From the NCBI RefSeq assembly GCF_900112205.1, contig NZ_FOKW01000004.1, forward strand, positions 124,001 to 188,000: DNA of 64,000 nt, in the 5' to 3' direction. Shown in pieces: positions 52,452 to 64,000 of the stretch (the first letter of the stretch is position 1; each line of letters opens with the position of its first letter). Both the position numbers and the translations under genes were made by a program. Origin of the DNA: Natronobacterium haloterrestre. GTDB taxonomy: Archaea > Halobacteriota > Halobacteria > Halobacteriales > Natrialbaceae. The notes beneath the pieces were generated by a model that made no database searches, had not been told where the DNA came from, and saw only the letters and a program-made list of their open reading frames with translations.

Positions 52452-52474
52452 TGTAGCAATAATAATGTGGTGCG

Positions 52475-52507
52475 TTACCGATTCTCTCGTTGCTCGACTT
52501 TGTTCAG
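52475..52507 (-). repeat. Copy C: the genuine 3' end of aroQ
   Basis: LNKVEQRENR then TAA, the present end of the chorismate mutase gene, matching copies A and B in protein but not in codons. If it arrived with the latest integrating element, the older ends were displaced to A and B. Confidence 0.8.
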
Positions 52508-52804
52508 TTCGATCAACAGCCGGAAGATCGCCTTCACCAGATTCGCGTCCACGTCAAACTGCTCGGCGTTTTCGCCCGCCCGGTCCATCACCTGCTGTTC
52601 CTGCTGCTCGTCGGTCGTCGGCAACCCCTTCTCGTCTTTGACCTGTGCGATCGTATCCGCGACGTAGGTCCGCTGGGCGATCAACTCGACGATCTCGCGG
52701 TCGATCGTCTCGATCTCCTCGCGGAGTTCGTCGAGGCTCATTTCGTCGGGGGTTCGCGTTTCGGTCCGTTCGTTCCGTTCGTCGTCGGTCGTGTCTCGAG
52801 TCAT
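52475..52804 (-). CDS. aroQ: Chorismate mutase (AroQ type)
   Basis: A 109-aa all-alpha chorismate mutase converting chorismate to prephenate for Phe and Tyr. An acidic N-terminal tail (residues 1-22) precedes the AroQ core: LDELREEIETIDREIVELIAQR (long helix with the catalytic Arg), VKDEKGLPTTDEQQEQQVMD and the final IFRLLIELNKVEQRENR. The gene is 16 bases downstream of aroK on the same strand, forming an aromatic-biosynthesis operon. Its 3' end is the target of the att-like repeats. Confidence 0.93.
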   Translation of the reverse strand: MTRDTTDDERNERTETRTPDEMSLDELREEIETIDREIVELIAQRTYVADTIAQVKDEKGLPTTDEQQEQQVMDRAGENAEQFDVDANLVKAIFRLLIELNKVEQRENR

Positions 52805-52820
52805 GGTGTACTGTCTCCGT

Positions 52821-53708
52821 TCAGCTACGGGGCCGCGTCCGCGTCCCGTCGGTTCGTGTCGCAAGCAACCGCGTCGTCCCGTTGCGCTCGTCCCACCTTT
52901 CCCGAACCGCCTCGAGTGCGTCCGTCTCGCCGAGGGCGACGTAACTCGGCCCCGTCCCGGACAGCGAGACGCCGGCGACGTCGGGAAGGGCGTCGACCAG
53001 CGGTCCAGCCGGGAACTCGAGCGCGCCGCAGAAGGCGAAGCCGTTGACGGTCATCGCCTCGCCGTATCGCCCGTCGAGGGCCAGTTCCTCGACCAGGGCG
53101 GCCATCGGGGCGATCCGTTCGCAGGCGTCGACGTTCGCGTCGGCGCTGAACGACTGTTCCGGCGGGGTGTAAACGAGCGCGTGCCAGCCCCCATCGAGTT
53201 CGTCGCGGGCGAGCAGTTCGTCGGTCCCGTTGTCGGTGACCGTTACGCCCCCGAGCATGCTGGCGCTCGCATCGTCGAACGCGCCGGTGACGGTGACGCC
53301 GGCGTCGCGGGCAGCCTGAACACCGAGCCGGCAGGCATCGATCCGCTCGACGGCGTCGGCGATCCCGAGCGCGTCGAGCGTCGCGAGCACCGTCGCGTTG
53401 GCCGCGGCGCTCGAGCTTTTCAGCCCCGAGGCCATCGGCACCTCGCTCTCCGTGCGGACGCGAGCGCCGACCGCGGCGTCGGCCAGTCCCGCACGATCGG
53501 CGTACTCGGCGATCGCCAGTTCGGCACAGCGCTCGATGAGGGTCGCGTCGGCGTCGGCCTGGCCGTCGATCCGGCCGTGAACGTCACCGTCGTCGGTGAG
53601 TTCGACCGTGGCTGTCGTCTCGAGGTCGATGGCAAACGCGGAGCCGACTCCGGTCGCGAGTGCGTTGAGAACCGTCCCGGCTGCGGGAGCAACGGCGCGG
53701 CCGTCCAT
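52821..53708 (-). CDS. aroK: Shikimate kinase, archaeal GHMP type
   Basis: A 295-aa GHMP-superfamily kinase phosphorylating shikimate with ATP, unrelated to bacterial AroK. Its ATP loop is PMASGLKSSSAAANA, and the C-terminal GVSLSGTGPSYVALGE matches GHMP motif 3. Start at MDGRAVAPAAGTVLNAL, a normal GHMP first strand. The 5' flank holds the divergent DUF5796 gene. The aroQ gene follows after 16 bases. Confidence 0.95.
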   Translation of the reverse strand: MDGRAVAPAAGTVLNALATGVGSAFAIDLETTATVELTDDGDVHGRIDGQADADATLIERCAELAIAEYADRAGLADAAVGARVRTESEVPMASGLKSSSAAANATVLATLDALGIADAVERIDACRLGVQAARDAGVTVTGAFDDASASMLGGVTVTDNGTDELLARDELDGGWHALVYTPPEQSFSADANVDACERIAPMAALVEELALDGRYGEAMTVNGFAFCGALEFPAGPLVDALPDVAGVSLSGTGPSYVALGETDALEAVRERWDERNGTTRLLATRTDGTRTRPRS

Positions 53709-53862
53709 ATCCGTACACTCGTGGACGGATACTTACGGCTGACGATCCGGGTGAGCACGGCACACGGATGCGTCACGTGGTCGCGGCGTTCGGTTTCCGG
53801 TCCGGCATCGAACGCGGGTGAGAACGCACGCCTTTTCCCCCATCCGACCGAACGATGGGGCA

Positions 53863-54354
53863 ATGACCACGCGCAGCAACGTCGCCCCGAGCACGATCGG
53901 CGTCGACCTCGTCGACGGCGGCGTCGTCGTCCAGTACCTCGACGGCCGCGAGGTGTTCTATCACGGGCCGCCGAAACCCGTCGAGGGGTCGATCACCACG
54001 CCGCCGGGGAAGGACGTCCACGTCCTCGTCACCGACCCCGACGGCGTCGAGGGCGTCATGACCTACGTCAACGACCGCGACACCCACGACGGAATCCTCG
54101 AGACGACCGGCGTCGGGCGGGTCATGCTCGAGAGCGACGACGAGGAGGTGCTGTACCCGGGCGTGACGGTCTCGACGGAAGGGTACTCGATCCGGGTCGA
54201 GGCGGACGTCTCGGCGGTCGACGGTCGGATCTTCGTCTTCGCGGAGGACGAACTGAGCGAGCACGCCTACGAACTGGTCGCGGAGACGGACGACGGGGAG
54301 GACGAGGACGGCGGGGAAGCCGCCGCCGAACCGACCGACGCCACGGAGGAGTGA
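53863..54354 (+). CDS. DUF5796 family protein
   Basis: A 163-aa acidic beta-rich protein. The N-terminal part reads TIGVDLVDGGVVVQYLDGREVFYHG and GVEGVMTYVNDRDTHDG, ending in an acidic disordered tail. This is the DUF5796 family of haloarchaea; no role is known. The Met of MTTRSNV is preferred over upstream starts. Only two bases separate its stop from the next GTG, so the pair is co-translated. Confidence 0.85.
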   Translation: MTTRSNVAPSTIGVDLVDGGVVVQYLDGREVFYHGPPKPVEGSITTPPGKDVHVLVTDPDGVEGVMTYVNDRDTHDGILETTGVGRVMLESDDEEVLYPGVTVSTEGYSIRVEADVSAVDGRIFVFAEDELSEHAYELVAETDDGEDEDGGEAAAEPTDATEE

Positions 54355-54356
54355 CC

Positions 54357-54602
54357 GTGCCACTGCAGAAACCCTGGACCGATCTCGACCGCGACGCGGT
54401 CGCGAAAGCGCCGGACCGGCCGGGTGTCTACGAACTCGGCGACGCGGACGGTACTGTCCGCTCTGTCGGGCACGGCGTCTTGCGCGACGAACTCAAGACG
54501 GCGCTTTCCTACGGCGACGGCGACCGCGTTCGCTGGACCGAGACGCACACCCTCGAGCGGGCCCGCGAACTCGCCGAGGAACACCGGGAACGCCTCGAGT
54601 AA
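54357..54602 (+). CDS. Small protein with GIY-YIG-like start
   Basis: An 81-aa protein beginning at GTG 54357. Residues about 20-45 read RPGVYELGDADGTVRSVGHG, resembling the GVYxL...G...IG core of GIY-YIG nucleases, but the rest of a nuclease domain is missing. A C-terminal helix (ERARELAEEHRERLE) ends it. It lies directly after the DUF5796 gene. Probably a non-catalytic relative; function unknown. Confidence 0.78.
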   Translation: MPLQKPWTDLDRDAVAKAPDRPGVYELGDADGTVRSVGHGVLRDELKTALSYGDGDRVRWTETHTLERARELAEEHRERLE

Positions 54603-54701
54603 CGGAGGCGATCGCCGGCGGGAACGGATCGCGTCGCCTCGGTTTCCCGGCTCTTCATCTGGCCCGCATCGAAACCGGTGCAAGCGAGGCGATCACTGCG
54701 A

Positions 54702-54836
54702 TCACTGGATGTACGACGGCTCGGTGTCGTCACAGCGCTGCTCGTGTTCGGAGGCGTCCGACTTCTCGTCGAAGAGCAACCCACAGTTTTCACACTCGTA
54801 CCACGTCGCGTCGTCCCGCTCGGTCTGGACGACCAT
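54702..54836 (-). CDS. 44-aa zinc-finger-like microprotein
   Basis: Reads MVVQTERDDATWYECENCG then LLFDEKSDASEHEQRC. The pattern C-x2-C ... H-x3-C resembles a C2HC finger within a domain of about 30 residues. Haloarchaea encode near-identical microproteins. The longer upstream extension to 54944 is unlikely. No function is known. Confidence 0.78.
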   Translation of the reverse strand: MVVQTERDDATWYECENCGLLFDEKSDASEHEQRCDDTEPSYIQ

Positions 54837-54977
54837 GCGGGGGGATGCGACGCGAACCCTCAAATGCGTTTCTCCGGCGGGACGGGCGACCGCCGGCCGG
54901 AGGGGCTGGCGGGACCAGTGAGACCGGCGAGACCGGCGGGGCAACCCTCAAGGCGACCCGGCCGGAACGTACGCTCC

Positions 54978-57278
54978 ATGAGTGGGTCGGATCCGGACCC
55001 GGACCCGGGCTCGAGCGCGAACGGCGACGGCGTGGAGCTAACGGTGCGGGCCGCCGAGAAACGGGACGCCGGGCGCGGCGTGGCGCGGATCCCGGAGTTC
55101 GCGCGGCGACAGCTGGGCGTCCTGAGCGGCGATACGGTGGTCATCGAGGGCGACGCGACGACCGTCGCGAAGATGTGGCCAGCCGATCCGTCAGTGCCCG
55201 AGAACGTGGTCCAGATCGACGCCGACACGCGGGCGAACGCGGGCGTCCACGTCGGCGACACCGTCGTCGTCCGGACGAAAGACAAATCGTCGATCCAGGA
55301 GGCCCAGCGAGTGACGCTTGTCGCCCCGCCCTCGCTGTCCGACGACGAGCGCCAGGTCGCCGAGCGCAAGGCGACCAAGAAACTTCGGAACCGGCCAGTC
55401 CGGGCCGGCGAACAGATCCGCGTCGAGGGGTTCGGCCAGGAGCCGTTCAAGGTGGTCGACACCGATCCCGACGGCGACGTGCGTATCTCGAGTACGACGA
55501 CGATCCGGATCGTCGACGCGCAGGGGAGGAAACCCAACCGGGCGAGTTCCGGATCCGGAAGCACGGAGCGATCCGGCTCCACCGGGTCGACCGATACGTC
55601 CGCCGGCAGCACCGATACTGACACCGACGACGCCAACCTCGAGACCGAACTCGAGGGCGGCGACCCCTCCGAGACCGGCGGCGGCTCCGGGCCGAGTTCC
55701 GGCGTCACCTACGAGGACATCGGCGGTCTCGACGAGGAACTCGAGTTGGTGCGGGAGATGATCGAACTCCCGCTGTCGGAACCGGAACTGTTCCAGCGGC
55801 TCGGCGTCGAGCCGCCGTCGGGCGTCCTGCTGTACGGTCCGCCGGGCACCGGGAAAACGTTGATCGCCCGCGCGGTGGCCAACGAGGTCGACGCCCACTT
55901 CGAGACGATCTCCGGCCCGGAGATCATGTCCAAGTACAAGGGCGAAAGCGAGGAACAACTGCGCCGAACCTTCGAGCGGGCCCGCGAGGAGGCCCCGACG
56001 ATCATTTTCTTCGACGAGATCGACTCCATCGCGGGCGCTCGCGACGACGAGGGCGACGCCGAGAACCGGATCGTCGGCCAGTTGCTGACGCTGATGGACG
56101 GTCTCGACGCCCGCGGCGAAGTGATCGTCATCGGCGCGACCAACCGCGTCGACACGATCGATCCCGCCCTGCGCCGTGGCGGCCGGTTCGACCGCGAGAT
56201 CCAGATCGGCGTTCCCGACGAGAAAGGTCGGAAGGAGATCCTCGAGGTCCACACCCGGGGGATGCCCCTGGCCGACAACGTAAGCGTCGACGCCGTCGCC
56301 CGCCGGACCCACGGGTTCGTCGGCGCGGACCTGGACGCGGTCGCGAGCGAGGCGGCGATGGCGGCGATCCGCGACCGGCCGACAGACGCCAGCGATCGGG
56401 TCGAGTGGAACCGGGATCCGGTCGTCGAGAAGCGCCACTTCGACGAGGCGCTGGCGTCCGTCGAACCGTCCGCGATGCGGGAGTACGTCGCCGAATCGCC
56501 CGACACCGACTTCTCGGACGTCGGCGGCCTCGAGGACGCGAAGGGGACCCTTCGTGAATCGGTCGAGTGGCCCCTGACTTACGATCGGCTGTTCGAGGAG
56601 ACCAACACCGACCCGCCGTCGGGCGTCCTGCTGTACGGCCCGCCGGGAACCGGCAAGACACTGCTGGCCCGGGCGCTGGCCGGCGAGACGGACGTCAACT
56701 TCGTCCGCGTCGACGGTCCGGAGATCGTCGATCGCTACGTCGGCGAGAGCGAGAAGGCGATCCGGGAGGTGTTCGAGCGGGCCCGCCAGTCCGCGCCGTC
56801 GATCGTCTTCTTCGACGAGATCGATGCAATCACGGCCGCCCGGGGGGAGGGCCACGAGGTCACCGAACGCGTCGTCTCCCAACTGCTGACCGAACTCGAC
56901 GGGATGCGGGAAAACCCCAACCTCGTCGTGCTCGCCGCCACGAACCGCAAGGAGCAGATCGATCCCGCACTCCTGCGCCCGGGACGACTCGACACCCACG
57001 TGCTGGTCGGCGAACCCGACCGCGAGGCTCGCGAGAAGATCCTCGAGGTTCACACCCGCGGGAAACCGTTAGACGAGGACGTCGACGTGCGCGAACTCGC
57101 CGCCGAACTCGAGGGGTACACCGGCGCGGACCTCGAGGCGCTGGTCAGAAACGCCTCGATGAAGGCGATCCGCGAGGTCGCGACCGAGTACGATCCCGAG
57201 GCGGCCAACGAGCGGGCCGACGAGGTCGTCATCGAGCGGCGTCACCTCGCGGAGGCGAAGGAGTCGATCGACCGCTGA
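54978..57278 (+). CDS. cdc48: CDC48/VAT-like AAA ATPase
   Basis: A 766-aa two-ring AAA+ unfoldase. An N-terminal double-psi barrel/clam domain (about residues 20-180; VVRTKDKSSIQEAQRVTLVAPP) is followed by a Ser/Thr/Asp-rich linker (about 188-230). The D1 ring has Walker A GPPGTGKT at about 287 and FFDEIDSIAGARDD, the D2 ring Walker A at about 554 and FFDEIDAITAARGE; both have arginine-finger segments. It unfolds ubiquitin-like-tagged or damaged proteins for the proteasome. The linker's GSGSTERSGSTGSTDTS is longer than in classical Cdc48, a haloarchaeal feature. Confidence 0.95.
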   Translation: MSGSDPDPDPGSSANGDGVELTVRAAEKRDAGRGVARIPEFARRQLGVLSGDTVVIEGDATTVAKMWPADPSVPENVVQIDADTRANAGVHVGDTVVVRTKDKSSIQEAQRVTLVAPPSLSDDERQVAERKATKKLRNRPVRAGEQIRVEGFGQEPFKVVDTDPDGDVRISSTTTIRIVDAQGRKPNRASSGSGSTERSGSTGSTDTSAGSTDTDTDDANLETELEGGDPSETGGGSGPSSGVTYEDIGGLDEELELVREMIELPLSEPELFQRLGVEPPSGVLLYGPPGTGKTLIARAVANEVDAHFETISGPEIMSKYKGESEEQLRRTFERAREEAPTIIFFDEIDSIAGARDDEGDAENRIVGQLLTLMDGLDARGEVIVIGATNRVDTIDPALRRGGRFDREIQIGVPDEKGRKEILEVHTRGMPLADNVSVDAVARRTHGFVGADLDAVASEAAMAAIRDRPTDASDRVEWNRDPVVEKRHFDEALASVEPSAMREYVAESPDTDFSDVGGLEDAKGTLRESVEWPLTYDRLFEETNTDPPSGVLLYGPPGTGKTLLARALAGETDVNFVRVDGPEIVDRYVGESEKAIREVFERARQSAPSIVFFDEIDAITAARGEGHEVTERVVSQLLTELDGMRENPNLVVLAATNRKEQIDPALLRPGRLDTHVLVGEPDREAREKILEVHTRGKPLDEDVDVRELAAELEGYTGADLEALVRNASMKAIREVATEYDPEAANERADEVVIERRHLAEAKESIDR

Positions 57279-57470
57279 CTTTCGGTGTCGGCTCGACTCG
57301 GGTCCGATAGCGGTCTTCATCCCGAAGAGAGACACGAGCACCTGCGGGTCCGAGAAGCGAGCGACGGCCTCTCCTGGGGAGGGCTATGACTGCACGCCGG
57401 CGCGCGACCCCTCTCGGCGCAATTGACAACGAAGTAACGGCTTTAACCCCTGGGGGACGAAACAGGAGGT

Positions 57471-58280
57471 ATGCCTTCCGCCCCTGCCGACGGCGACGCC
57501 TCCGCCCCCGTCATCGAGACGGCCGACCTGACGAAGCGATACGGCGAGACGACCGCCGTCGCGGACCTCGATCTGGCGGTCGACCGGGGGACCGTCTACG
57601 GCTTTCTCGGTCCGAACGGCGCGGGCAAGACGACGACGATGCGGATGCTGACGACGCTGACCCGGCCGACTGCCGGTACCGCCCGCGTCGCGGGTCATCC
57701 CATCAGCGACCGGGAACTCGTCACGCCCCACATCGGCTACCTCCCCGAGGAGCCGCCGATCTACGACGAACTCAGCGGGCGCGAGCAACTCGAGTACGTC
57801 GCCGGGTTACGTGACCTGCCCGAACACGAGGTCACGGACCGCATCGAGTCGCTGCTCGAGCGGTTCGACCTGCTTGCCGACGCCGACAAACGCATCGAGG
57901 AGTACTCGAAGGGGATGCGCCAGAAGGTCGGCGTCATTCAGGCGGTGTTACACGAACCCGCAGTGGCCTTCCTCGACGAACCCACGAGCGGGCTCGACCC
58001 CCGCGCCGCGCGGACGATGCGGGACACGATCGCCGAACTCGCCGACCGCGAGATGACGATCTTCCTCTCGACGCACATCCTGCCGGTGGTCGACGAACTG
58101 GCCGACGAGATCGGCGTCCTCCACGACGGTCGCCTCGTCGCGGAGGGCGACCCCGAGACGCTGAAATCCCGCGCGGAGACCGGCGACGCTCGCAGCCTCG
58201 AGGACGCGTTCCTCGAGGTGACCCGGGAGTCGCCCGACCGACGGGCCGACGACGTGGCGGCGAACTCCTCGCCCGAATGA
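57471..58280 (+). CDS. ABC transporter ATP-binding protein
   Basis: A 269-aa ATPase: Walker A GPNGAGKTTT, Q loop YLPEEPPIYDEL, signature YSKGMRQKVG (LSGGQ variant), Walker B VAFLDEPTSGLD and His switch STHILPVVDE. This is the DrrA/CcmA-type of exporter ATPase. TATA-like CTTTAA lies about 28 bases upstream of the ATG, with GGAGGT directly abutting the start and too close to act as a Shine-Dalgarno. No clear permease adjoins it, although a polytopic protein follows after 55 bases. Confidence 0.93.
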   Translation: MPSAPADGDASAPVIETADLTKRYGETTAVADLDLAVDRGTVYGFLGPNGAGKTTTMRMLTTLTRPTAGTARVAGHPISDRELVTPHIGYLPEEPPIYDELSGREQLEYVAGLRDLPEHEVTDRIESLLERFDLLADADKRIEEYSKGMRQKVGVIQAVLHEPAVAFLDEPTSGLDPRAARTMRDTIAELADREMTIFLSTHILPVVDELADEIGVLHDGRLVAEGDPETLKSRAETGDARSLEDAFLEVTRESPDRRADDVAANSSPE

Positions 58281-58297
58281 GTCGTCACGAACGTGGT

Positions 58298-58306
58298 GGT
58301 AAATAT
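58298..58306 (+). promoter_or_regulatory. TATA box of the 58336 membrane gene
   Basis: GTAAATATA lies about 33 bases before the ATG at 58336. This separate promoter argues for the second Met (58336) as the start, not that at 58309. Confidence 0.45.
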
Positions 58307-58335
58307 ACATGTGGTCGGCCGTGGCAGCTCCGTGC

Positions 58336-59163
58336 ATGGTCCCTTCGCTTCCTCGTCCCTCCTCGGCGGCGATCGCGACCGGCCTCGTCGGCGGCGTCGG
58401 CAACGCCGTCGTCGCCGTCGCGCTGTACGCCCGCGCTGACTACCCCGCCCTCGAGTCGACGGGCGAAACCGCGCTCGTCGCGCTGTCCGCGTTTCCGGTC
58501 GGGTTCGTCCCGCTGTTGCTCGCGGCCTACGCCCGACTCGTCGCTCCCGCCCTCGGCTTCCTCGGACTCGTCGCCGGAACGGTCCGGCTCGAGGTGACCA
58601 CTCCCGCTCCCGAGTGGGGCGAACTGGGGGAGTACGTCGTCGTCGACGGGCCGACACACGTCGGCAGCTACGTCGATGCCTGGTACCTCTGGCTCGTGCT
58701 GGCCGCACTGCTGGCCGTCGCGGAGTTCGGGCTCCGTCGGCGGTACGGGATCGGCGACGGGCGGCTCCGCAACCTGCCCGACGGGCCACTCGAGCGGTCG
58801 AGCCGCTACGCGGTCGTCGTCGGAACCGCCGTCCTCGTCGGCATCGCGACGTCGTTGCTGGTGGTCGACGCGGGGATCAGGCCGGCCGCGCTGACGTCCG
58901 CGGTCTTCGCGTTCGCGGCCGCCGTGACGGCCGTTCCGCTCGCCGCGCTGTTCGAGGACGGCGCGCTCGCGCCGCTTGCCCTCTTCCCGCTGGTCCCGTA
59001 CTTCCTCGTCCTCGAGGTCTTCGTGACGACCGACAGCCCCGTTCACATCCTGCTGTTCGGGCCTTACGCCGTCGTTCTGGCCGTCGTCTGGGCGCTCGAG
59101 CGGCGGTTCCGATCCCGGCTGGGGGCAAGCGGCGATTCGCTCGGGGCGGACGAGCCGGTTTGA
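58336..59163 (+). CDS. Seven-helix membrane protein, unknown
   Basis: A 275-aa polytopic membrane protein from the second Met. Seven hydrophobic segments alternate with charged loops, and the middle contains ELGEYVVVDGPTHVGSYVDA before a membrane span. It could be an unconventional permease partner of the ATPase encoded 55 bases upstream, but it has its own TATA box. It resembles no family I can name. Confidence 0.72.
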   Translation: MVPSLPRPSSAAIATGLVGGVGNAVVAVALYARADYPALESTGETALVALSAFPVGFVPLLLAAYARLVAPALGFLGLVAGTVRLEVTTPAPEWGELGEYVVVDGPTHVGSYVDAWYLWLVLAALLAVAEFGLRRRYGIGDGRLRNLPDGPLERSSRYAVVVGTAVLVGIATSLLVVDAGIRPAALTSAVFAFAAAVTAVPLAALFEDGALAPLALFPLVPYFLVLEVFVTTDSPVHILLFGPYAVVLAVVWALERRFRSRLGASGDSLGADEPV

Positions 59164-59201
59164 GACGCGAAAACGCTTACCCTCGTCCCCAGTAGCACGA
59201 C

Positions 59202-59416
59202 TCAGGGATCGAACACGCCGCGGCGCAGGCCCTCGCGGACGGGGTCGTGTTCGGCGTCGGTCGGCGGCGGGCTCGTCACGAGCATCGCCTCGAGCCGTTC
59301 GTCCTCGTCGGCGAGTTCTAATGTGGCAGTGCGGGGGCCGATGGCGGCAACTCATCGGCCCCAAGGTCGGCCTCGAGGTCGATATCGATCTGTCGCCTGT
59401 CGATCGTCGCGGACAT
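59202..59416 (-). pseudogene. Frameshifted small conserved gene
   Basis: From ATG 59416 the frame reads MSATIDRRQIDIDLEADLGA then runs to a stop. A one-base deletion near 59356-59359 explains this: shifting frame restores AAIGPRTATLELADEDERLE and LVTSPPPTDAEHDPVREG down to the TGA at 59202. The intact protein would be 71 aa. It falls over a perfect 10-bp inverted repeat (59334-59362). Either a true mutation or a sequencing error; function unknown. Confidence 0.5.
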
Positions 59417-59545
59417 GACAACTCGAGATGAGCGGAGATTCCCTCTTTAAATCGACTTACAGTTCCGAATAATCTCGCTGTCGTGGACTTGTGTTAGTTC
59501 CAATCCTAATACTTATTATGTTAGGGTGCATACTAACAAACAGAG

Positions 59546-59845
59546 ATAACAGACGACGTCGCGGTCGTTCGCGACGAGACAGAAGCCTACGCGGACGGCA
59601 CTGCTGCCCGCGTTCGCGTGCTTGCGGTGCCCGAATCCGAGAAGTTCCCCGAGGGTATCAAGTACGCGTTCCACTACGGGGAAGCCGGTGCTGACGATCC
59701 GGTCATTCGGTTCGACAACCACCACGGGGTTCACGAACTGCACCTCAGCGCCGAGGTGTTCGAAATCGACTACCCCGGTCTTCAAGCGCTCTACCGCGCT
59801 TGACGGGCAGAATTCCCACCCAAGAAGCGAGACACTGGTAAGTAG
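59546..59845 (+). pseudogene. Decayed DUF6516-like toxin gene
   Basis: Frame reads TDDVAVVRDETEAYADGTAA, RVRVLAVPESEKFPEGIKYA, FHYGEAGADDPVIRFDNHHG, then YPGLQALYRA and a TGA at 59801 in a place where related proteins have Trp; it continues in frame RAEFPPKKRDTGK to a TAG. No ATG or GTG start remains upstream (ATA at 59546). So both start and a Trp codon are damaged. The family (DUF6516, a toxin-antitoxin toxin group) is inferred from sequence wording; the downstream HTH is its usual partner. Confidence 0.6.
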
Positions 59846-59904
59846 AATCGCCTTCAAATTATCACCCACCTCTTGGGTGACTCTCTGACAAAAACAAAAG
59901 CGCC

Positions 59905-60303
59905 ATGACCCGAACACTCCACGTCCGAATCGACTCGTCGTCCGATCGTAGCGACCTCGAGGATACGCTTGCCGCTCTCGACGCTGGTGAGACAGATGTG
60001 GTCAAGCCGAAACCATCAACGCTCTTAGTTGAGGACCTCGAGACGTTCGGCCGCATCTTCCGGCCGACGAACCTCGAGTTGCTCGAAGCGATCGCGGACC
60101 ACGAACCAGAGAGCATTCGCGAGCTCGCACGCCTCGTCGATCGGCACCCGCCGGAGGTTACGCAGAACGTGAACGAACTCGCCGATTACGGCCTCGTCGA
60201 ACTCGAACAGGACGGGCGAGCGAAGCGACCGACGATCTGGTACGATGAAATTGATGTCGATATCCCACTTGGCCAGCACTCGCCAGATGTCGCGCCAGCC
60301 TAA
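59905..60303 (+). CDS. HTH antitoxin-like regulator (HVO_A0114 type)
   Basis: A 132-aa winged-helix protein: N-terminal segment MTRTLHVRIDSSSDRSDLED, then PTNLELLEAIADHEPESIRE and LARLVDRHPPEVTQNVNELADYGL (helix-turn-helix) and a wing. The layout is the HVO_A0114-type family in which the protein is the antitoxin of a DUF6516 toxin. Here the toxin is a pseudogene, so the regulator survives as an orphan or neutralises a toxin elsewhere. The ATG lies 59 bases after the toxin reading frame ends. Confidence 0.8.
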   Translation: MTRTLHVRIDSSSDRSDLEDTLAALDAGETDVVKPKPSTLLVEDLETFGRIFRPTNLELLEAIADHEPESIRELARLVDRHPPEVTQNVNELADYGLVELEQDGRAKRPTIWYDEIDVDIPLGQHSPDVAPA

Positions 60304-60492
60304 TTCCACTTATATTTTAGCGACTTGATCGGGCTTAGGATCAATATCGGAGGTGATTTTGGTCCTCCCTTCAGAAATAACTCGATCCCATCGTTACGCT
60401 TCTGCTGTAATATCCGCTGCTAAGCTCTCAGTGTCATCTATTCGTCGATTTTCTTAAGTCCGTTGCAAGCTTTTCGGTGTTTTTCTCATTGG

Positions 60493-60702
60493 CTAAACCT
60501 CTAAGAGACGTGTCTTCGATATATGAACAGCTGTATCATCTTCACACCGAACGGTCTCGACCTTCTTATTAGTCAAATCCAGCGGTAGAAAGAAGACAAG
60601 AGTACCTGATTTCACTGCTTCAAGCAAATTGATTTGCTGAGCCCTCAGCGCTTGTAGCAGGTCTTTTTCAATAAATGTCTCTGTATCCTCAATCAGTGCT
60701 AG
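60493..60702 (-). pseudogene. Truncated gene fragment cut by transposon insertion
   Basis: The minus-strand C-terminal piece of an unknown protein: IEDTETFIEKDLLQALRAQQ, NLLEAVKSGTLVFFLPLDLT and VETVRCEDDTAVHISKTRLL, with a stop at 60493. Its N-terminal part is replaced by transposase sequence beyond about 60702. AT-rich codons mark it as foreign to the host's usual composition. Family not recognised. Confidence 0.45.
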
Positions 60703-61227
60703 AGGAGTACTACCACGGCTACGGCTGTACGATCGTCTCGACTGGACAAAGATCCCGATTGTCGCCGAGTTCACCGAGAGTAAACAAGTGCTAGAAGAGA
60801 CGGCGATGCGCGTTACATGTGACGCGCTCGCCGTCAAGAAACCGACATGGATGGTCGGTGACAGCGCCTACGACACACTCTACTGGCACGATCACCTGCT
60901 GGCTGCAGGGGTCGTACCAGCCGCCCATACAACGCACGAAACACTGACGAGCCGAAAGGCATCGAGTACAGGGTTGAAGATCGCATTGAGGAACACAGCA
61001 AAGATATTCAGCTGAAGAAATAGACCCCAAACGAGAGGTATAACCGTCGTACGGGCGTTGAACGAAGCAACGAATCAGTCAAGCACTGCGGCCTCGGGCG
61101 CACCCACGCCCGAGGCCGCGTCCATGCGCAAGCACCAGTGTTCCTCGCGCTGTGTTTGAGCCTCGTCGTTGCAATCTCCAACTACGAGCGTGGAGACAAT
61201 TCAGCAAGTACCGTGATTTCGGTGTGA
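60696..61227 (+). mobile_element. Degenerate DDE transposase remnant
   Basis: Pieces in order: EEYYHGYGCTIVSTG, EFTESKQVLEETAMRVTCDA, KPTWMVGDSAYDTLYWHD, then after frameshifts NARNTDEPKGIEYRVEDRIE, RTGVERSNESVKHCGLGRTH and ALCLSLVVAISNYERGDNSA to a TGA at 61227. This is the C-terminal half of a haloarchaeal DDE transposase, with at least two one-base losses and an internal TAG. It is inactive. The IS family is not determined. Confidence 0.7.
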
Positions 61228-61248
61228 AAAGACTTCTATGATACCCTT

Positions 61249-61473
61249 TTAATCGATATAGGCCAATAACGTCATTCCTATTAGATAGGTTGTCCCTATA
61301 CACAATCCCAAAACCACCGCTTCAGCCCAGAATGCCGAAACAAGTGGAAGGAACCACATCCAACCTATAAACACACCTATGGCCGCAAAAACTGGGCCAC
61401 CGACATAAAGAAACCATTTATTATTCCATGCATCCTTATTAGTACTCAGCTTCCGTTTGACTTTGTCATTCAT
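61249..61473 (-). CDS. Small two-helix membrane protein next to the glycine-zipper protein
   Basis: A 74-aa protein with a basic N-terminus (MNDKVKRKLSTNKDAWNNKW) and two hydrophobic segments: FLYVGGPVFAAIGVFIGWMW and AEAVVLGLCIGTTYLIGMTL. It is encoded 108 bases downstream of the glycine-zipper protein on the same strand and has equally AT-rich codons, so it travels with it. Bacteriocin immunity proteins are often small, basic two-helix membrane proteins; that role is inferred from position and shape alone. Confidence 0.65.
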   Translation of the reverse strand: MNDKVKRKLSTNKDAWNNKWFLYVGGPVFAAIGVFIGWMWFLPLVSAFWAEAVVLGLCIGTTYLIGMTLLAYID

Positions 61474-61581
61474 TGGAATAGGACAGGCCAGTTAGTAATT
61501 GTCTCTTGTTATTGGAACTGCTGTACGGTATTTAGAAGAAGGTGTCTCAGGATGAAGTGTTTTCTCAATAAGGTTCTCTAC

Positions 61582-62595
61582 CTAATATATATCCTCTTCA
61601 AACTCAAAGCCAGCATCGACCGCCGCACCGTTTTCTAAGTGTATTGCAGGAGGATCAACGCTCGGAATAGTAAGTAAATCCTGTTCTTTGTCCATCCAAA
61701 TACCGCTTACAAGTGGTTCCACCTTTGGATTACACAGGCCTGCTGTACAACTATCGTAATCTCGAAGCACAACTGTGGCATTACTCGTATCCTTAAGATA
61801 GTCAATAACGAACGTTGAAATTCCACCTACGATTGCACCAATTGCACCACCTACCGCACCCCCTAGCAGAGCGCCAATGATCGCACCAAGTACACCACCA
61901 AAAAGTGTGGCAGAAAGCGAATTTACGTTATCGTTATAGTCCATTGATGCACCTAACTGATGATGTGGATTACTGTTGTAACTCGCATCACAAGATGTTC
62001 CCTGTGGACTTTCGATATAGTATCCTCCGATTCTATTCAGAGCTTCTTTTGCACCATCTGATAGATCATCAATAATGTCTTCGACAATACTCCGATCTCG
62101 AGTTCCAATGTGTGTGGACTTTATATGATCCCAAAGTTTTGGTTCCGATTCCTTTTCAAATCCACTGGTGCTTTTCTCAGTTGATTGAATATCGTTACGA
62201 TTCTTTTGCTTCTCACTACTTTCTTTTATGAATTCTTCAATACTTTCTAGTACTTTTGGTTTGACACCATATATCTGCTCTTCTTCATCGGGTCCTACAC
62301 TTAGTGAGACTTCACTATCCTTCTGAGTTGAACCTTCGCCGTCTTTAGCTGTTGGAAGGATAAAACCGTCTGTTTCCCCAGTTGTTTTATCATGACAAAC
62401 TGAAATAGTATATTGGGTGTCGTCTTCCGTCATAGTATCAATTGCAACAACTAAATCATCATTCGAACTCTCAGCATGTTCCTCATCATCACTGGCAGCA
62501 CTGGTTTGTCCGGCGAGTATTGTCGAACCCAGGATAGCTGTACTGGCTGATTTCAATACCACTCTTCGATTCGTAGTGGATTTATCATCCATCAT
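61582..62595 (-). CDS. Tat-exported precursor with glycine-zipper hydrophobic core (candidate archaeocin)
   Basis: A 337-aa secreted protein. Its signal is twin-arginine (NRRVVLKSASTAILGSTILA, Arg10-Arg11). The mature N-terminal half is acidic and hydrophilic with Cys67. Residues about 229-260 form a glycine-zipper helix pair (FGGVLGAIIGALLGGAVGG then AIGAIVGGI), bracketed by Cys202 (GTSCDAS) and Cys283/Cys288 (DSCTAGLC). Pore-forming bacteriocins and some toxins use such GxxxG helices. It does not match halocin C8, which is Cys-rich. AT-rich codons and the neighbouring small membrane gene fit a laterally acquired bacteriocin-like locus. The start is one of two adjacent Met codons; bacteriocin activity is a hypothesis. 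Confidence 0.6.
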   Translation of the reverse strand: MMDDKSTTNRRVVLKSASTAILGSTILAGQTSAASDDEEHAESSNDDLVVAIDTMTEDDTQYTISVCHDKTTGETDGFILPTAKDGEGSTQKDSEVSLSVGPDEEEQIYGVKPKVLESIEEFIKESSEKQKNRNDIQSTEKSTSGFEKESEPKLWDHIKSTHIGTRDRSIVEDIIDDLSDGAKEALNRIGGYYIESPQGTSCDASYNSNPHHQLGASMDYNDNVNSLSATLFGGVLGAIIGALLGGAVGGAIGAIVGGISTFVIDYLKDTSNATVVLRDYDSCTAGLCNPKVEPLVSGIWMDKEQDLLTIPSVDPPAIHLENGAAVDAGFEFEEDIY

Positions 62596-62933
62596 TACAT
62601 TCAGCAACCTATATTCTATTGGTAATAGCTTTTCCGAAATGAGCTTAAGTTATATCTAATAATTATAATGACTAGCATTAATCAGGAAATTAATAATTAA
62701 AAGTGCAGCATAGTATCGGTCCTGGCGAATTACTTGGCGTACTCTTAGAGGAGTTCGGAGGAAAACAGTATAATGGCCAATAAGACGCTGCAGTCATGCG
62801 ATTCTTTGGCGGACCAAAGAGGCATGTTTCTTAATTAACCAACAACGAGACTAAACATTGTTCGCTGTTGATTAATATATCCAACTGCAGGTGTTTCAAC
62901 CGCTTCGCCGTAGAGTACTCTGCTAAAATGAGG
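62596..62933. other. AT-rich end of accessory island 2
   Basis: 338 bases, very AT-rich (TAATAATTAT, TTAATTAA runs), with the likely promoter of the glycine-zipper gene at its left edge. A 21-codon ORF with an AGGA upstream (62773-62838) is too weak to call. Confidence 0.4.
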
Positions 62934-63152
62934 TCACTGCAGTACTCGCGTCGGGAGATCGATTTTCGGTTCGACGTCGGATCCGTCGCGGACGCAGATG
63001 GCGACGTCGCTGCCCGGCGCGTGAACGGGGATGAACTGGCCGGGCTCGAAGTAGCCGAGGACGACCTTGATCCGGTCGTTCGCGAAGACGGGCTGTGCGG
63101 AGAACTGTTCGTCGTCGTACTGCCGTTCGGCGTCGAAGTCTGTCGCTGGCAT
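62934..63152 (-). pseudogene. 3'-truncated cupin gene at the island border
   Basis: A 72-aa frame begins like an intact cupin: MPATDFDAERQYDDEQFSAQ, FANDRIKVVLGYFEPGQFI then PVHAPGSDVAICVRDGS (metal-ligand His strand). After RDGS it diverges to DVEPKIDLPTRVLQ and stops, lacking cupin motif 2. Homologues of about 100 residues would continue with a second conserved box. The break coincides with the edge of the AT-rich island, so the island's insertion removed the 3' end. Confidence 0.6.
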
Positions 63153-63239
63153 GGTGTCGACTGTTTAGGTTGGCCTAAACGAGTGTGCGAACGTTGGTCG
63201 GTTCGTCACGTCGGCCTTCCCCCGAACATGTCGGACGTC

Positions 63240-63278
63240 CGCGGACCGCGGACCGCGGACCGCGGACGGCGGACCGCG
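63240..63278. repeat. Short tandem repeat of GGACCGC units
   Basis: Several copies of GGACCGC (one variant GGACGGC) in a row upstream of the folC-like gene. Non-coding; likely slippage-prone. Confidence 0.55.
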
Positions 63279-63350
63279 ATTACGACCTACGAACCGCGGG
63301 ACGACCTGCTCCCGGACGGTCGACCCGACGCTGGACCCGAGTCCGACACG

Positions 63351-63356
63351 CTAAAG
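63351..63356 (+). promoter_or_regulatory. TATA-like element before folC
   Basis: CTAAAG about 26 bases before ATG 63380, giving a leaderless transcript and supporting this start. Confidence 0.45.
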
Positions 63357-63379
63357 CGGCCGGACTGGCTGGTTCGGGT

Positions 63380-64000
63380 ATGGAGTATCACGAGGCGGCG
63401 GACTTTTGTTTCGGTCTGCGGCGGTTCCGTCCGAAGCCGGGGACGGAGTCGACCGCACGGTTGCTCGCCCACCTCGAGAACCCCCACGAGGACGTCGATT
63501 TCGTGCAGATCGCCGGCTCGAACGGTAAAGGGAGCACGGCTCGGATGCTCGAGCGGACGCTCCGGGAGGCCGGACTGACCGTCGGGCTCTACACCTCGCC
63601 GCACCTCGAGGACCTGCGCGAGCGGATCCGCGTCGACGGGCGCAAGATCCCCCGCTCGGCGGTCACCGACTACGTCGAGGCGGTCCGAGAGTACGTAACC
63701 GAGCGGGCAGCGGACGGCGACTCCCCGACGTTCTTCGAGGTGATGACTGGAATGGCGCTGTGGCACTTCGGACGGGAGGACGTCGACGTGGCCGTCCTCG
63801 AGGTCGGCATCGGCGGCCGCTACGACGCGACCAGCGTCGTCGATCCGATCGCCAGCGCGGTGACAAGCGTCACCTTAGAGCACACGGGCATCATCGGCGA
63901 GACCGAGGTCGAGATCGCCGAGGACAAGGCTCACGTGGCCCCGGACGACGCGCCGCTGGTCACCGGCGTCTCGGGCGACCCGCTGGAGGCGATCCGGGAG
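63380..64000 (+). CDS. folC: Dihydrofolate synthase / folylpolyglutamate synthase (3' truncated by window edge)
   Basis: The first 207 residues of a Mur-ligase-like enzyme. The ATP loop is AGSNGKGSTAR, followed by LYTSPHLEDLRERI (omega loop with the catalytic His), FEVMTGMALWHF and VLEVGIGGRYDATS. It adds glutamate to dihydropteroate or folates. In haloarchaea this gene is often fused to folP (dihydropteroate synthase), so the part outside the window may contain that domain; this cannot be checked here. Open to the last base. Confidence 0.93.
   Translation, partial: MEYHEAADFCFGLRRFRPKPGTESTARLLAHLENPHEDVDFVQIAGSNGKGSTARMLERTLREAGLTVGLYTSPHLEDLRERIRVDGRKIPRSAVTDYVEAVREYVTERAADGDSPTFFEVMTGMALWHFGREDVDVAVLEVGIGGRYDATSVVDPIASAVTSVTLEHTGIIGETEVEIAEDKAHVAPDDAPLVTGVSGDPLEAIRE

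Follow-up and report, generated by a model that had tools for sequence, protein, structure and literature searches.

Halocin production is reportedly near universal among haloarchaea; to our knowledge, only a small number of halocin genes have been identified, and hardly any separate immunity genes have been described. Among surveys of archaeal antimicrobial genes, that of Makarova et al. 2019 (mBio 10:e00715-19) bears most closely on the subject. Here, a gene pair from Natronobacterium haloterrestre is compared with the described systems. It lies in a stretch of 64,000 nucleotides, called the window below (contig NZ_FOKW01000004.1, positions 124,001 to 188,000), and consists of a gene for a 337-amino-acid precursor with a signal for the twin-arginine translocation (Tat) pathway (61582–62595, minus strand) and a gene for a 74-amino-acid membrane protein, P0002 (61249–61473, minus strand). 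Judged from its sequence, the pair is probably a halocin-like toxin–immunity module, the precursor being the predicted membrane-active toxin and P0002 the predicted immunity protein.

The HalC8 family (TIGR04449, halocin_C8_dom) resembles the window's precursor in consisting of Tat precursors of similar length with a toxic hydrophobic C-terminal domain. It includes a proven halocin, and some of its members parallel the two-gene layout seen here. In three HalC8-domain Tat precursors (L124:886-1710, L126:907-1713 (L125/L126) and L131:1498-2322; L numbers denote loci and G numbers genomes), an open reading frame (ORF) with two transmembrane (TM) segments (59 amino acids) or four (125 amino acids) lies 28–98 bp downstream, and separate immunity genes are possible in these members. 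The classical HalC8 genes (L127–L130, L133) have no such downstream ORF, in line with the role of their N-terminal part, HalI, as immunity factor (PMC11509114). Homology of the precursor to HalC8 was rejected. Profile–profile comparison with hhalign gave a probability of 0.2%, the HalC8 cysteine pattern is absent from the precursor, and TIGR04449 had no match over its curated cut-off in the window's protein, in 16 family members or in the window's whole genome. An earlier note on this DNA, made from the letters alone, had called it unlike halocin C8 or H4.

HalH4 is another Tat-exported halocin, of about 359 amino acids, with an internal hydrophobic stretch. Together with HmHapP of Haloferax mediterranei, HalH4 of the same species is an exported precursor that is activated outside the cell by halolysin cleavage (PMC12893001). 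The activity of HmHapP resides in its N-terminal 45 amino acids, whereas the conserved candidate region of the window's precursor is C-terminal. An approximate HalH4 sequence used as a query drew no match from plasmids, from genome contigs or from the family searched. In Caulobacter, the glycine-zipper contact-dependent bacteriocin CdzC/CdzD is accompanied by a small transmembrane immunity protein, CdzI (PMC5380434). The likeness to the window's pair lies in this combination of glycine-zipper toxin and small TM protein; CdzC/CdzD differs in being a bacterial, two-component toxin that leaves the cell by type I secretion. TelE requires a C-terminal glycine zipper for membrane damage and is opposed by a small cognate immunity protein, TipE (PMC10434224), but it takes the type VIIb secretion route, has an LXG N-terminus and is paired with an immunity protein of the DUF5085 family.

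The precursor ORF is intact and has homologues; it runs from an ATG at 62595 to 61582, with a TTG at 62607 as an alternative start. Its Tat signal peptide (NRRVVLK...ILAGQTSA; 62485–62595, minus strand) lacks a lipobox cysteine and has its arginine pair at residues 10–11, kept in 19 of 21 aligned family members. The mature protein is acidic overall (59 D/E against 21 K/R), as one would expect of a protein that a haloarchaeon exports. Residues about 229–262 (61810–61911, minus strand) form a glycine-zipper hydrophobic hairpin, modelled at low confidence as two helices. The most hydrophobic 32-residue stretch begins at residue 233, up to seven overlapping GxxxG motifs fall within 40 residues, and among 5000 shuffles of the mature part none equalled the precursor in 32-residue hydropathy and none in GxxxG count. 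Immediately ahead of this segment stands a conserved Cys202...His211 motif (61963–61992, minus strand). Beyond it lie Asp281 and the C-terminal His319 (61639–61755, minus strand), which enclose an LVSGIWMD block found in close relatives. Over 21 divergent members, Asp281 is conserved in all and Cys202, His211 and His319 in 20 each; glycines of the hairpin are also kept. The family layout is a Tat signal, a variable N-terminal half, Cys...His, the Gly-rich hairpin, Asp and a C-terminal His; a close group further shares GTxCD..PHxQLGxSxDY, the hairpin, LKDT, RDxD and PLVSGIWMDxxxDxL. The four near-invariant residues may serve metal binding, domain structure or catalysis.

Most of what the earlier note had read from the letters was recovered in this way: a Tat-signal protein with its arginine pair, a GxxxG-rich hairpin (placed at about residues 229–260), an AT-rich island around it and a 74-amino-acid membrane protein just downstream on the same strand. 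Its picture of a hairpin framed by cysteines held in part. Cys202 is conserved, Cys283 and Cys288 are not, and the window's precursor has a further cysteine at position 67. Because the homologue in L015 keeps the first cysteine and lacks the later ones, a disulfide between Cys202 and Cys283/288 is ruled out as a family feature. The note would have counted an alignment of the hydrophobic core with a known enzyme or surface-protein anchor against its reading; nothing over cut-off was found for the core, only sub-threshold generic glycine-zipper models. No Pfam or NCBIfam model scored above cut-off for the precursor family, a search of PDB returned no sequence relative of solved structure for the precursor, and comparison with PHROGs and PADLOC gave generic or chance matches only. 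The Bacteriocin_IIc model (PF10439) matches weakly along the GxxxG hairpin, with an E-value of 0.0043 and a score of 17.4 bits, the cut-off being 27.1. Assignment to the class IIc bacteriocins was rejected, as the score lies below the Pfam gathering cut-off and the protein has a Tat leader and no double-glycine leader.

Gene order speaks for a functional pair. In the window, 108 bp separate the precursor from the 74-amino-acid ORF on the same strand. A first set of loci holds 20 intact, non-redundant precursor members. Directly downstream of 18 of them, on the same strand, is an ORF of 65–155 amino acids with at least two TM segments, counted by a simple hydropathy rule; its start lies anywhere from 47 bp ahead of the precursor's end to 138 bp beyond it. 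Among background genes of the same DNA, obtained by simple ORF calling over about 250 kb, a neighbour of this kind accompanies only 1 of 111 genes of comparable size and none of 12 with a Tat-like N-terminus. Fisher's test gives p of about 6e-19, which takes no account of shared ancestry and so overstates the independence of the members. The earlier note had proposed co-occurrence as a check, and seen from the precursor it bears the pairing out. In a second set, four of seven loci have a clear partner (L115, L116, L117, L120) and a fifth a looser one (L123, at 199 bp).

The two genes also diverge jointly. Partners are of at least two types: proteins of 73–92 amino acids with two TM segments or, beside divergent precursors, proteins of 122–150 amino acids with up to four. 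They are only 14–18% identical to the window's own partner, against 33–41% for the precursors. Similarity matrices of precursors and partners correlate with a Mantel r of 0.76, a value reached in none of 5000 permutations, so that the two genes travel and diverge together; the same correlation would also arise from linkage by itself. Within the family of P0002 itself, alignment shows Trp16, Asn17 and the terminal Asp74 to be invariant (motif W16-N17...D74). P0002 relatives adjoin divergent precursors in L106 (G110), L109 (G238) and L117 (G473). Hydropathy gives the 74-amino-acid protein two to three hydrophobic segments. Its single-sequence model is one long helix (predicted local distance difference test, pLDDT, 86; predicted template modelling score, pTM, 0.40), which counts neither for nor against a hairpin.

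Relatives of the precursor are scattered across haloarchaea. Searches of plasmids with tblastn found almost full-length homologues on pBNX82-3 of Haloferax alexandrinus (38.7% identity) and phalar01 of halophilic archaeon DL31 (32.1% identity), as well as a copy truncated by an insertion sequence (IS) on pR1SE2 of Halorubrum lacusprofundi; all three are annotated as hypothetical. Profile searches of haloarchaeal genomes added further members, several of them on multi-megabase contigs that are presumably chromosomes. Many weak profile matches were discarded from the family, their similarity being confined to the Tat signal. The distribution is patchy, over plasmids and islands, and none of four other genomes from the window's own genus has the precursor. 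Direct protein-to-contig searches found no precursor relatives in genome contigs or viral contigs, and a viral origin is therefore not claimed. The family is large and, subject to the survey by Makarova et al. 2019, taken to be uncharacterised. Decayed or IS-interrupted copies occur in L097 (5712–6790, minus strand), L099, L100 and L016. In L097 the precursor frame is broken and the small membrane gene is retained, the pattern that would follow if immunity persisted longer than the toxin.

By analogy, the arrangement on mobile DNA of an exported hairpin precursor and a small membrane partner that evolves fast is that of a bacteriocin and its immunity protein. The precursor would be exported through the Tat pathway, after which an extracellular serine protease would presumably free the C-terminal half from the variable N-terminal half. 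The host genome has seven Peptidase_S8 matches, and the precedent of HalH4 and HmHapP suggests activation by halolysin-type cleavage. The freed half, in which conserved Cys/His and Asp/His pairs flank a glycine-zipper hairpin of helices, would insert into membranes of related cells and make them permeable, while the small protein in the producer's own membrane would keep the toxin from inserting or assembling. The analysis shows the export signal, the conserved anatomy and gene arrangement, the joint divergence and the island location; from these we infer the killing, the pore, the release by proteolysis and the immunity.

Several results weigh against a toxin–immunity module. Four intact members (L098, L108, L118, L122) have no same-strand partner; near L122 a weak P0002-like ORF lies on the opposite strand. 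Viewed from the membrane protein, the pairing is rare: the P0002 profile matches 54 of 391 genomes, and of 29 P0002 loci examined outside the window only two, in G110 and G238, have a recognisable precursor upstream, the others mostly standing alone. A simple pore does not account for the near-invariant Cys, His, Asp and His. None of the known halocins proved a sequence relative of the precursor in the tests run, where the HalH4 query was only an approximate version, and structure prediction of the toxin domain from the sequence without relatives gave an unusable model (pLDDT 38). The bacteriocin-plus-immunity reading of the earlier note thus gains from the linkage, from the lack of an enzyme or anchor match and from the HalC8-domain parallels, and loses by the stand-alone P0002 genes and the unconserved Cys283/288 flanks.

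The conserved residues lend themselves to another explanation, in which the precursor is an exported enzyme. Cys202, His211, Asp281 and His319 would then make up a site for catalysis or metal binding, which the hairpin would deliver or anchor, and the small membrane protein would be an inhibitor or receptor. These four are the family's most conserved residues (20–21 of 21), but no enzyme family in Pfam, NCBIfam or PDB matches, and the member in L120 has neither the Cys nor the His yet retains hairpin and partner; an enzyme is accordingly unlikely. We regard as equally unlikely a non-toxic envelope pair, with the hairpin anchoring the exported protein in the producer's membrane beside a small membrane subunit, for example in surface exclusion or plasmid transfer, akin in principle to TraT/TraS. 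TraT and SlyB are among the glycine-zipper proteins that gave weak PDB matches (E 0.04–0.4); these matches and the plasmid location of several members speak for such a pair. Those matches are, however, confined to the glycine-zipper repeat, the precursor has no lipobox, several members sit on multi-megabase, presumably chromosomal contigs, and partners that range from two to four TM segments would be less usual for a structural subunit than for immunity proteins.

A contact-dependent variant would keep the small protein as immunity factor and change only the manner of killing. The protein would stay on the surface, perhaps as glycine-zipper aggregates, and kill neighbours that touch the cell. 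The surface-retained glycine-zipper bacteriocins CdzC and CdzD of Caulobacter, with their small TM immunity protein CdzI, provide the precedent (PMC5380434), whereas the window's precursor has a Tat signal and no genes corresponding to those of the Cdz system lie beside it; this variant seems slightly less probable still than the enzyme or the envelope pair.

Should the toxin–immunity module be real, its clear domain signature and linked membrane partner, in more than 20 natural pairs, would offer a directly testable archaeal toxin–immunity set and account for a group of AT-rich islands and for plasmid genes whose present annotation is hypothetical. A wider proposal can be put forward only tentatively, and we lean against it: a class-wide, undescribed haloarchaeal toxin family with a Cys-His/glycine-zipper hairpin/Asp-His core, possibly metal-assisted or self-processing, with exchangeable two-TM and four-TM immunity proteins, and with the stand-alone relatives of the 74-amino-acid protein as orphan immunity genes protecting non-producers.

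The P0002 family is found widely as stand-alone proteins (at the centre of each of loci L138–L166). One explanation is that these are candidate orphan immunity genes; another is that P0002 represents a general family of small membrane proteins, with immunity proteins recruited from its ranks. A tRNA lies near the orphan relatives in only two of 27 loci (L140, L161), and is no general feature. About 173 bp upstream of one orphan P0002 homologue, a hydrophobic protein of 101 amino acids with a Cys-rich tail (CQQWSCCDENGEGGCECTEGCGDSC) is encoded (L010:987-1292, also in L142); it could be a small halocin-like peptide.

The pair itself sits in an acquired island. GC content is 41–46% at 61–63 kb, against about 67% elsewhere in the window, and alignment of the flanks to locus L172 of a congener, G001, delimits 3.66 kb of AT-rich DNA (59314–62971) missing from that genome. 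The flanks (52474–59313 and 62972–64000) match L172 at 94–95%, and the two matches are separated there by only 79 bp; being nearly contiguous, they imply that 59314–62971 is absent from G001. The congener thus has a clean empty site (L172 11712–11792), and the island took the place of about 79 bp of target. Its insertion truncated an ORF (62934–63152) of which G001 has a longer, intact version; we read it as cupin-like, and Pfam gave no match. Bordering the pair is a degenerate remnant of an IS transposase of the DDE type (60702–61247, plus strand), recognised by a sub-threshold DDE_Tnp_1 match and by DNA 84% identical elsewhere in G001. The island also holds a gene for a winged helix-turn-helix protein, assigned to the HVO_A0114 family by a family match (59905–60303), and the short ORF that precedes it (59618–59803) may be its truncated partner.
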